NCBI GenBank assembly: GCA_947644575.1
Contig: CANRZX010000004.1
Location: 1-32,995 of the forward strand
Length of the DNA stretch: 32,995 nucleotides
Source: an uncultured Clostridia bacterium
GTDB taxonomy: Bacteria > Bacillota > Clostridia > Oscillospirales > Ruminococcaceae
Direction: 5' to 3'
Shown here one piece after another: positions 29,658 through 32,995 of this stretch. The notes below the pieces were generated by a model. That model ran no database searches and was not told the origin of the DNA. It was given only the letters and a program-made list of their open reading frames with translations. The translations under genes were made by a program, and so were the position numbers. How positions within the stretch are numbered: position 1 is the stretch's first letter; each line of letters begins with the position of its first letter.

Positions 29658-29693
29658 AAATTGTCCGGTCAAATCACTCTGACCGGACAATTT
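29658..29693 (-). terminator. Terminator of the tRNA-Asn gene
   Basis: Perfect 14-bp arms AAATTGTCCGGTCA and TGACCGGACAATTT around an 8-base loop, directly beyond the tRNA 3' end on the minus strand, with a T-rich tail in that direction. Its presence shows that this side is the native chromosome. Confidence 0.8.
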
Positions 29694-29694
29694 C

Positions 29695-29755
29695 TGGCTC
29701 CCCCTGTTGGGCTCGAACCAACGACCCTGCGGTTAACAGCCGCATGCTCTACCAT
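29695..29755 (-). tRNA. tRNA-Asn (GTT), 5' end missing
   Basis: On the minus strand, GGTAGAGCATGCGG, the anticodon loop CTGTTAA (anticodon GTT), the T-arm GTTGGTTCGAGCCCAAC and AGGGGGAGCCA form the 3' part of tRNA-Asn. The 5' acceptor strand TCCCCCT and most of the D-arm are missing; before GGTAGAGC the sequence reads GTGCTATAT. It cannot make a normal acceptor stem, so the gene is interrupted. The serine recombinase lies about 95 bp away on the other side of the break. The fragment is best read as one junction of an integrated element. Confidence 0.85.
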
Positions 29756-29850
29756 ATAGCACATTGTATACCCAAAATGGAGTCTGCCGGACGCTTTGAC
29801 TGTGTCAGTGGCGTTCTCCATTGTAAAGCATTGGCATAGAGGGCTTTGGT

Positions 29851-31440
29851 TCAAACGGCGAGAGGGATGTCCGGTGCGACACCTTCCAGAAACTGCCGGT
29901 AGTTGAGATCGACCTCGAACCGGATCTGATAGCCCCGGTCAAGTTCGATCCTCGAAAAAAGCTCCGACAGGATCATGCGTTTGCGCTCCATTGAAGCAGC
30001 GTCAAATTCATCGGCCCAGCTTGTGAATTGGTCGTAGTATCGGCCCAACTCCAGCGCGATTTTCTCCTGATTCTTCGCCTGTGCATCGAGCTGCCTGACG
30101 GCGTCCTGCGCCGCTTTCAGCTCGGTTTTCTTTTTGTCGATCAGTGTTCCCAGCGTTTCCTCCGTGAATCTGCTTTCTCCCAAAAGGCACTTACTGATTT
30201 CCTCGGTCAACGCATCCAGTTCACGCTTGGCCTTGTCCATTTTCGCCGCCGCATCCTTTTTTGCCGCGAGGAGCTGTACGATCTTGCCCTGCATCCGCAG
30301 CTCGATGGATGCGTCGCGGGGCGTCTCTTGAATGGAGCGGAAGATCATATGCGCAATTTCCGTGACGATCTTATCGACGCGCTCGGCCTGATAGGTCTGC
30401 TGGCCCGCGCAGTTGTTCAGCTGACGGGTGGCATGATAGCAGATATAACGCGGAACTTCGTTTTCGGTCACTCTGCCGTCCACGCATTGATACCGCTCCT
30501 TCTTGATCACCGAGGCCAGCCGCTTGCCGCAGCAGGCACAGAACAGGTTGCCGCCGAGCATACTGTGCGACCGGCATGTCCATGACTGGCGGCGCTTGTC
30601 GCTGTTGATCCTCTGGCGCTCCTGCACCAGCTTGATCGTCTGCATCTTGGTTTCTTCGTCGATGATTTCCAGATCAGGCAAGTGAGGGGACATGGCTTCC
30701 GCTGTGATCAGATATCCCATGTACTCCGGATCCAGCAGGATTCGGCGAATCGTGTTGGCTTGAAACCTTGTGCCGTTATGCGTGCGCAGACCGCGCGCAT
30801 TCAATTCCTCGGCCATTGTGTGTGTCCCGACGCCCTCGTAGAGCGCCCGTCGGTGAATCTCCTGCACAATGAGCATTTCTGTCGGATCAACTTCCTTGTC
30901 TTTAACAGGTACGCCCTTTTTGTTTGTCCGGCCTTTATCGGCCAGCCGATAACCGTATTGCACTCTGCCGCCTGCGAATACGCCCGCTTCTGTCATCTGC
31001 TTGATGCGGGTTTTGATGCGGGTGGATGTCTTGCCGGATTCGCCGGACGCCTGCCAGAAGCGGATATAGTTCAGCAGATAATCCACATGGTCGTCAAACT
31101 TCTGCTGCCCCTCGCGGGTACTCCAGACCTCGATGCCCTGTTTGACAAACCACTCCACCACAAACGGCGTTTCGTCCTCGCGGCGGCCAAGACGGTCGAA
31201 CATGAAGACGAGCAGGACGTCAAATTTTCCCTGTTCCGCATCGGCTTTGATGAGCTGCAGCTTGTCGCGGCGCTCGGCGGACACCTTATAGCCCGACACG
31301 CCAAGTTCGGCTTCTTCCCGCAGGATCGTCCAGCCCTTTTCTTCAGCGAATTTCCGGCATTCAATGCGCTGCATCGGGATGTCGTTGTGATCGACCTGTC
31401 CTTTTGTCGAAACTCTGTATAGGCAATAAACTCGTTTCAT
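29851..31440 (-). CDS. Large serine recombinase (site-specific integrase)
   Basis: Integrates and excises the element by serine recombination; 529 aa. Domains in order: resolvase catalytic domain (1-135) with the nucleophile Ser11 in YRVSTKGQ and the FMFDRLGRREDE stretch; recombinase domain (about 150-255, QYGYRLADKG, ILLDPEYMGYL); zinc ribbon (about 300-345, LFCACCGKRL with paired Cys further on); coiled coil (about 365-440); and a short C-terminal tail. I moved the start to the ATG at 31440, where GGAGGG lies 6 bases upstream, not the track's 31461. The gene ends about 95 bp from the tRNA break. Confidence 0.94.
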   Translation of the reverse strand: MKRVYCLYRVSTKGQVDHNDIPMQRIECRKFAEEKGWTILREEAELGVSGYKVSAERRDKLQLIKADAEQGKFDVLLVFMFDRLGRREDETPFVVEWFVKQGIEVWSTREGQQKFDDHVDYLLNYIRFWQASGESGKTSTRIKTRIKQMTEAGVFAGGRVQYGYRLADKGRTNKKGVPVKDKEVDPTEMLIVQEIHRRALYEGVGTHTMAEELNARGLRTHNGTRFQANTIRRILLDPEYMGYLITAEAMSPHLPDLEIIDEETKMQTIKLVQERQRINSDKRRQSWTCRSHSMLGGNLFCACCGKRLASVIKKERYQCVDGRVTENEVPRYICYHATRQLNNCAGQQTYQAERVDKIVTEIAHMIFRSIQETPRDASIELRMQGKIVQLLAAKKDAAAKMDKAKRELDALTEEISKCLLGESRFTEETLGTLIDKKKTELKAAQDAVRQLDAQAKNQEKIALELGRYYDQFTSWADEFDAASMERKRMILSELFSRIELDRGYQIRFEVDLNYRQFLEGVAPDIPLAV

Positions 31441-31599
31441 TCGTTTCCCTCCATATACCATGCTTGTGTGATATATGGGTTCACAATGTTGCTATCTTCT
31501 GTTTTCAAGGTGCTGCCGCGCCGCACTTTTCTGTGCTTCGCGTCAACATACAGTATACCATGAACCCGTTCTCTCGGTTATCACCAGAACCAACAAAGA

Positions 31600-31740
31600 T
31601 CAGCCCGTAATACTGACACATTGCATTCGGCGTTGCTCATAGGCGTCCAGCAGATTTTTCATGAGGCGCCGTTTTAGTTCCGGGCGTTTATCTTTCGTAA
31701 AGCAAAGCCGAACACGGCACTCATCGATCCGCAGATCCAT
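31600..31740 (-). CDS. Small 46-aa ORF upstream of the recombinase
   Basis: Too short for the ORF track. It reads MDLRIDECRVRLCF, then KRRLMKNLLDAYEQRR and ends ITG with TGA. An in-frame stop lies just before it, so ATG is the first possible start. No clear ribosome site is visible. The pattern of a short beta strand followed by a basic helix fits small accessory proteins that I believe sit beside recombinases in clostridial elements. A role in recombination or its control is inference. Confidence 0.5.
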   Translation of the reverse strand: MDLRIDECRVRLCFTKDKRPELKRRLMKNLLDAYEQRRMQCVSITG

Positions 31741-31798
31741 GACGTCGCTGAATTAATCAGACGTCTAAACAATGTAAAGGTATCTGTCGATTACAAAT

Positions 31799-31850
31799 AA
31801 AAACTCGCGCAAGCCGGATGCTGCGGTTTCACGGCTCACTACGAGTTTTT
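31799..31850. terminator. Stem-loop, probable bidirectional terminator
   Basis: AAAAACTCG and CGAGTTTTT pair over a long loop that has its own AGCCG/CGGCT stem. It separates the recombinase part from the AT-rich cassette. The stretch 31851-31997 has no gene. Confidence 0.6.
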
Positions 31851-31997
31851 ACTCAAATTGTTTTTATGTTACTAACTATTTTATATACCAGTCAGTATGT
31901 ACAGTAATAATAAGAAATCAGTAAAAAATCCAATCTTTTACTCGAATATATTTATCTTTTCTCACGACTATAATTTCCACGACATTTATGTTTCTAT

Positions 31998-32579
31998 CTA
32001 ATACTCTTTAAGAATTCGAAAATATTCTTCTGCCGTTTCCCTGTTAAAGGTACATAACAAGCATATATATTCTAACAAGAAAAACTTGTCAGCTAATTCC
32101 ATCTCATTTAACTGATAATCCTTTTGTGCGAAATACAAATTCCGACATACAACATCAATATAATCGGTATCACACGACCATGCTTTTGGGTATAGAAAAT
32201 CATCCAATGGTTCTAATTTGGATTTTTGAGTAATTATTTCGTTAATCTGTGCAATCAAATAATCAATAGCACATAACAGCAAAATCTTAGCTGAAGCAAT
32301 ATTGATATAACCCTCACTGTTCTCAGGCGCAGCCGCACTGCTATCAATAATACCCAATTTCAATCCCTGAACCACCATAATTGCCGCCACTTTATGTCTG
32401 TCCAAAAACTCCACGTCCGTAGACATATAGGTATCTTTATAGGCATTATAGCGATTCTTTGTTCCCTCCAGATATTCTTGCCTTTTTTCCTCTTTAAATT
32501 GGACATTTAATCCTTTTTCGGAAAACGCTTTACAATATTCCTTTGCTAAATCTAAAAAAGAATTAAGAGTGTTATTCAT
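31998..32579 (-). CDS. Unknown helical protein of the element cargo, 193 aa
   Basis: I do not recognise this protein. It is mostly helical, with MNNTLNSFLDLAKEYCKAFSEKG at the start, FLDRHKVAAIMVVQGLKLG in the middle and a hydrophobic helix ASAKILLLCAIDYLIAQINEI. There is no signal peptide. The DRHK word is the most distinctive motif. Its ATG overlaps the end of the membrane protein gene upstream (ATGA), so the two are made together. Base composition is AT-rich, unlike the sugar genes. Function unknown; a membrane-plus-soluble pair on a mobile element might be defence-related. Confidence 0.7.
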   Translation of the reverse strand: MNNTLNSFLDLAKEYCKAFSEKGLNVQFKEEKRQEYLEGTKNRYNAYKDTYMSTDVEFLDRHKVAAIMVVQGLKLGIIDSSAAAPENSEGYINIASAKILLLCAIDYLIAQINEIITQKSKLEPLDDFLYPKAWSCDTDYIDVVCRNLYFAQKDYQLNEMELADKFFLLEYICLLCTFNRETAEEYFRILKEY

Positions 32580-32881
32580 AGTTTATCCTTTCTCTTTGCA
32601 TAGAAAAAGTCTTTTGGTATCTCCATCGCCTTATACTTCTCTATATTTTTGGATATGAAAGAATGTTTACATGGATCCGGTCCTGCATTGGATACATGAA
32701 ATTTAATTTTTATTACTGGAGGGGAAGAAACTTTTATTTGAACAAAATTTTTCAGTCTTGCTTTAATTATATCGTGTAATTCAACTTTCTGTATTTTAAT
32801 AGCAGACAGGCTATAAATCAGAAAAACAATGAATACGATTGTTAGGAACGAAATACTTAAAATTGCATAAGTTAAAATCAT
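32576..32881 (-). CDS. Unknown small membrane-anchored protein, 101 aa
   Basis: First gene of the AT-rich pair. One membrane segment lies at residues about 3-28 (ILTYAILSISFLTIVFIVFLI), followed by a basic region and a soluble tail (PVIKIKFHVSNAGPDPCKHS). I prefer the ATG at 32881, with GAGGG about 10 bases upstream and the helix at the very N-terminus, over the track's 32947. It overlaps the 193-aa gene by 4 bp. No family recognised; 32882-32995 holds nothing I can name. Confidence 0.6.
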   Translation of the reverse strand: MILTYAILSISFLTIVFIVFLIYSLSAIKIQKVELHDIIKARLKNFVQIKVSSPPVIKIKFHVSNAGPDPCKHSFISKNIEKYKAMEIPKDFFYAKRKDKL

Positions 32882-32995
32882 CTCAAAAAGTCCCTCACAA
32901 ACAAGTCTAAAGTCATTATATTTCCGTAGCACTATACCAAAAAACAATCTGTTCTATAATGCCATCCATGATAGGTATTATAAGAAGCAAGATAT

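Follow-up and report, generated by a model that had tools for sequence, protein, structure and literature searches.

The window analysed here comprises the entire contig C4 (32,995 b) of its own genome, G000. It carries the 3′ part of a tRNA-Asn gene with its terminator, a large serine recombinase gene and one end of an integrated element, arranged as follows:

29660..29693, minus strand: intrinsic terminator of the split tRNA-Asn, hairpin TTGTCCGGTCA/TGACCGGACAA, from the sequence
29695..29753, minus strand: tRNA-Asn(GTT) 3′ part, nt 18-76 (partial match to Rfam RF00005; register identical to the intact tRNA-Asn of relatives)
29749..29750, minus strand: putative crossover dinucleotide AG, tRNA nt A21-G22, from its retention in tRNA halves and the symmetry centre
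29751..29777, minus strand: attL element arm TTTTGGGTATACAATGTGCTATATGGT, from its symmetry with the attR arm on contig C2 of G000
29751..32995, no strand assigned: recombinase-side end of the integrated element, running on past the contig end at 32995
29851..31461, minus strand: large serine recombinase, 536 aa (PF00239, PF07508, zinc ribbon)
31998..32579, minus strand: element ORF, 193 aa, no Pfam match
32576..32947, minus strand: element ORF, 123 aa, no Pfam match

ARAGORN detected no complete tRNA in the window. RF00005 matches 29706-29760 on the minus strand with 36 bits, which is above the gathering score and covers model positions 10-63 only. Alignment with the intact tRNA-Asn genes of relatives shows that the split gene has the anticodon GTT and an encoded CCA, and that unrelated DNA stands in place of the 5′ acceptor strand and the 5′ D-arm. 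The 59-nt tRNA match has an E value of 7e-6 for the genome, even as a fragment, and is far beyond chance. A preliminary description of this DNA had noted a tRNA-Asn broken in the D-loop that kept its terminator and had lost its acceptor 5′ strand to recombinase-side DNA; Rfam, ARAGORN and the alignment with relatives confirm the break, and the alignment confirms the replacement of the 5′ strand. The 3′ part at 29695..29753 is the displaced half of the gene, stranded at the attL junction. Terminators of the same type follow the element-borne tRNA-Asn both on contig C2 of G000 and in G007.

The recombinase is full length, and 98 bp separate its 3′ end from the split tRNA-Asn, with which it shares a contig that stops 1.5 kb upstream of the recombinase gene. 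Besides PF00239 and PF07508 it matches the zinc ribbon PF13408, the latter under the curated cut-off. Its catalytic serine, S18 of the N-terminal YRVST motif, is invariant in the recombinase alignment, and it is ~40-50% identical to recombinases that adjoin tRNAs broken in the D-arm, making it the probable integrase of the element. It has domain order and recognisable sequence similarity in common with the TP901-1, SPbeta YokA and phiC31 integrases, which are not known to target tRNA D-arms. Inspection by eye showed an imperfect inverted repeat at 29776-29822 (GGAGTCTGCCGGACGC.../...GTGGCGTTCTCC), in the stretch from the attL arm to the stop codon of the recombinase. Upstream of the recombinase, window 31620-31754 is 78% like G007 L071:1804-1936, which lies outside the 3′ half there and is perhaps a remnant of an older, outer element.

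The tRNA-Asn 5′ end was matched without mismatch at two sites in G000, both on contig C2. At C2:6888 the tRNA 5′ half TCCTCCTTAGCTCAGTCGGTAG is fused to foreign DNA, giving the junction TCCTCCTTAGCTCAGTCGGTAGAGCATATGGCACATAGGTAACCCAAAGACTG; the tRNA part there comprises no more than its first ~27 nt, a complete tRNA lies 370 bp farther in, and the element extends from ~6910 rightwards with ICE genes. The window junction is TTTTGGGTATACAATGTGCTATATGGTAGAGCATGCGG, and the core common to both junctions is GGTAGAGCAT. The attL and attR arms of G000 are reverse-complementary at 20/26 positions, the 99.9th percentile for shuffled arms being 16. In relatives, arm symmetry reached 23/26 in G061 and 18/26 in both G007 and G044, and was weak (13/26) for the G073 pair; a fixed centre of symmetry failed in some Ruminococcus elements, which yielded once 1-nt offsets were allowed. 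A21-G22 is the centre of attP symmetry in G000, G007, G061 and G044. It is also the only dinucleotide kept in all 5′ halves and nearly all 3′ halves across the family: every 5′ half reaches at least nt 22, and almost every 3′ half begins no later than nt 21. The two G000 junctions imply one putative near-palindromic attP recombined at A21-G22, and a near-palindromic attP together with a short core is as expected for a serine integrase.

The matching 5′ tRNA fragment that the preliminary description had sought at the other end of the element is thus present at C2:6888 with symmetric arms, and these mutually symmetric junctions lend support to its suggestion that a serine recombinase had split the tRNA gene. 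The two ends lie on separate contigs (C2 and C4) of a fragmented assembly, and we infer from the att arms and the ICE gene content that they are probably linked. On the non-element side of the C2 junction are PNPase and YbaK-like genes (named by eye from their translations), which adjoin tRNA-Asn in G009 or G007 too. Comparison with an empty site, also put forward earlier, succeeded on one side: no site matched on both left and right was found among the relatives, the C2 side alone being matched by PNPase beside the intact tRNA-Asn of G009, while the genes flanking the window side (GH31, cupin) had no match to an empty site in relatives.

A complete tRNA-Asn(GTT) with its own terminator occupies C2:7280-7355, 370 nt inside the junction. 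Counting of tRNA-Asn genes identified it as the only intact one seen in the G000 assembly (94.6% complete); the further copy that a split gene had been expected to require therefore exists. In the G007 and G061 assemblies, likewise, the carried tRNA-Asn is the sole intact copy. The T-stem of the C2 gene is TCTG/CAGA and that of the displaced half TTGG/CCAA, a compensated change. Downstream of it are genes for an actin-like protein, a C5 methylase, a giant SpaA-domain protein, a sortase, S-adenosylmethionine synthetase and TraG/VirD4. The TraG/VirD4 coupling protein, the actin-like protein and the sortase may belong to a conjugation machinery; the element is split over contigs, the C2 DNA beyond the junction appears ICE-like, and the element is most likely an ICE. 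Promoter-like sequences (TTGACA-TATAGT/TATAAT) precede the 5′ half in G007 and the intact tRNA-Asn of relatives, and one is visible in G077 as well. A leader hairpin before the replacement tRNA, taken by eye for a universal trait, was rejected as such, since folding against shuffles supports it at some loci only: z is -2.8 to -6 in several Ruminococcus-type Asn loci and near 0 in others.

A contig scan recovered 429 related recombinase loci, and the best 80 of these plus four from relatives were examined (n=84), a sample picked by similarity to the window recombinase. At least 62 of the 84 adjoin or lead to a broken tRNA gene (Asn, Ala or Lys) with the break at one shared position in the D-arm, 56 by strict count and six by looser matching or reading. 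No broken tRNA was found in the available DNA of the other 22, some of whose contigs end too soon; in a Ruminococcus bromii-like subclade (L096-L100, L102, L104, L106, L133), the 2-10 kb downstream held no tRNA fragment. Loci lacking a broken tRNA next door might be thought to target a different gene; this was rejected in part, as G073 and several others have the 3′ half 1.7-10 kb farther downstream, with cargo in between. Beside 15 unrelated serine recombinases there was no tRNA half, save one 18-nt match at chance level.

Two layouts recur. In the first, that of the window (Asn, Lys), the recombinase sits at the end with the 3′ half, and the replacement tRNA at the opposite end of the element; the second (mostly Ala) runs recombinase, replacement tRNA, 5′ half. 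The Ala loci of the second layout form one corner of the recombinase tree (a quick tree with SH-aLRT support only). In both, the replacement tRNA adjoins the 5′ half, i.e. it is downstream of the host promoter, and an intact tRNA stands next to a 5′ half in ~20 loci with Ala or Asn. In L154, the intact tRNA and the split host gene are different alleles, and the family's junction is present on the Ruminococcus albus 7 plasmid pRUMAL02. On this sequence evidence, a split tRNA accompanied by a carried replacement tRNA is a trait of the recombinase family, a recurrence beyond what the reading of a single window could show. Rfam pemK RNA matches were also observed 0.6-0.8 kb upstream of the family recombinase in L098, L100 and L130.

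Because the G000 assembly is fragmented, closure on a single contig was sought in relatives. Six of them have, on one contig, the order 5′ half, intact tRNA, element, 3′ half:

G007:C33, closed element of 10 kb: 5′ half, intact tRNA-Asn, element, 3′ half
G061:C56, closed element of 17.7 kb: same order of parts, tRNA-Asn
G073:C4, closed element of 56 kb: 5′ half, intact tRNA, element, 3′ half
G044:C1, closed element of ~92 kb: tRNA-Ala, on a single 3.0-Mb contig, recombinase degraded
G074:C13 (Neglectibacter timonensis): tRNA-Ala, 16 kb to the first 3′ half
G077:C2, closed element of 20 kb: tRNA-Ala

The G073 5′ half (TCCTCAA), now stranded, pairs with the far 3′ half (TTGGGGA), and the enclosed tRNA is another allele (TCCTCCT/AGGGGGA); the same pattern is spread over two contigs in G063. 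In both genomes, acceptor-stem pairing is better between the two stranded halves than between them and the replacement tRNA, indicating that the halves were once one gene and that the enclosed tRNA is of other origin. The family recombinase of G073 is 10 kb away from its 3′ half. The G007 element has no family recombinase, and its displaced 3′ half has decayed. In G074, a tRNA-Ala 5′ half (G074:C13:49986-50007) lies within a second, divergent recombinase gene (49104-50711).

Taken together, these data make it very probable that an ICE-type element entered the D-arm of tRNA-Asn by means of a serine recombinase and carries a complete tRNA-Asn as replacement. Tandem tRNA copies are common, and the ends of the G000 element are on different contigs, such that where the intact copy sits with respect to the element is itself deduced; the element might then have broken one member of a tandem chromosomal tRNA-Asn pair, the intact copy being an ordinary neighbour rather than cargo. 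We regard this as unlikely in view of the intact tRNA found between the 5′ and 3′ halves in G061, G073, G007, G074 and G077, the allelic difference between carried tRNA and split host gene in G073, G063 and L154, and the recurrence of an intact tRNA by the 5′ half in the ~20 Ala or Asn loci. Still less probable is insertion by a tyrosine integrase encoded elsewhere on the element, with the serine recombinase as cargo. Islands in tDNA mostly use tyrosine integrases and the middle of the G000 element is not assembled, but the core at the break is short, the tRNA is rebuilt at neither junction, the attP is near-palindromic as with serine integrases, and the recombinase adjoins the junction in dozens of elements with differing cargo. 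That an old tRNA-Asn simply lost its 5′ part by deletion beside a recombinase that is there by chance could be argued from a single locus, where the displaced half has no function and in some relatives (G007) decays, but is hardly credible given the matching 5′ half with its symmetric att arm at C2:6888 and the same break point recurring next to members of this recombinase family in at least 62 loci.

We propose that replacement-tRNA integration would proceed as follows. The large serine recombinase would insert the element into the D-arm of a chromosomal tRNA-Asn, by recombination between attB (centre A21-G22 in GGTAGAGC) and the near-palindromic attP. The attP and attB sites of serine integrases have only a short core in common, and this prevents the junction from restoring the tRNA. 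In place of such a repair, the element would bring a complete tRNA-Asn with its own terminator. This gene would stand downstream of both the stranded 5′ half and the host tRNA promoter, and may be read from that promoter or from one on the element. The replacement tRNA would make good the lost function, the host thereby becoming bound to the element, and it could also offer a fresh target for the next element, giving rise to nested insertions and ladders of 5′ halves.

Such ladders are seen. In G069, six successive tRNA-Asn 5′ halves, most of them with their own att arm, are spaced by ~100-110 bp and followed by one intact tRNA-Asn (L202, G069:C201, 73-790), and smaller stacks of 5′ halves occur in G061 (two), G055 (three) and L163 (two). 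A ladder of this kind follows if each new element enters the tRNA delivered by the previous one. Behind the inner 3′ half of G077 there is a remnant of a recombinase C terminus, and another 3′ half follows 8 kb on, as a nesting model predicts for putative successive insertions. The counts of 5′ and 3′ halves sometimes disagree (G069, G077, G074), and loss or misassembly must therefore occur too. We lean towards the broader view that tRNA genes serve these elements as renewable landing sites, at which a functional tRNA is destroyed, a complete new one is supplied under the host promoter, the host is bound and the target is reset, leaving countable stacks of 5′ halves.

The closest known phenomenon is tRNA-dependent lysogeny of actinobacteriophages, in which a whole replacement tRNA is carried by phages with tyrosine integrases (Guerrero-Bustamante and Hatfull 2024, PMC10865867), and whose authors asked how widespread it is elsewhere. 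Both systems integrate into a tRNA gene without rebuilding it, neither G000 junction having a complete tRNA, and both carry a complete tRNA (here at C2:7280-7355 and within the closed elements of relatives). They differ in that the actinobacterial phages use a tyrosine integrase, whereas the Clostridia ICE/IME-type elements use a large serine recombinase, cut the D-arm, form stacked insertions and place the replacement tRNA tens to a few hundred bp inside the host-promoter junction. The requirement for the tRNA was shown for the actinophages, whereas for the Clostridia elements we infer it. Carrying a whole replacement tRNA is known from actinophages; the Clostridia elements represent a serine-integrase, ICE/IME form of it. 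A serine-integrase version with a carried complete tRNA was not found in the literature searched, coverage of which leaves out most subscription journals.

tRNA genes have long been regarded as the territory of tyrosine integrases, because these enzymes can rebuild the gene. According to the authors of Islander, tDNA islands mostly use tyrosine integrases, and only these, not serine integrases, were known to target tDNA (PMC4383910). Those islands share with the present elements a tRNA gene as target and a displaced 3′ fragment at one end, but they rebuild the tRNA at the junction from an attP fragment, whereas here a separate complete gene is carried (PMC4383910). In a survey of actinobacterial ICEs, serine-recombinase integration into tRNA genes is called rare, the examples being the tRNA-Leu AICEs of Mycobacterium and, at the tRNA-Ser 3′ end, phage phiRSM1; these too have a serine recombinase targeting a tRNA gene, but the passages on them do not describe an element that breaks the D-arm and brings a complete replacement tRNA (PMC3218068).

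Our findings suggest that carrying a whole spare tRNA along gives serine integrases a route to the conserved D-arm. They would widen the range of tRNA-dependent integration, known from actinophages, to elements of gut Clostridia that are conjugative or mobilizable, and would explain the stranded tRNA fragments in the genomes of these bacteria. The integrases of the family, with one conserved dinucleotide and varied arms, may serve as genome-engineering tools. A further prediction is that an essential host function is carried on mobile DNA that also bears defence systems. The G061 element (L197, G061:C56, 2741-17889) encodes a type III-B CRISPR-Cas system with an RT-Cas1 fusion, Cas6 and a Card1-like nuclease, together with a NikA/MobC mobilisation protein; that of G007 encodes a NACHT protein and a KAP NTPase with a QatA-like match, and that of G073 a Tmn-like protein.
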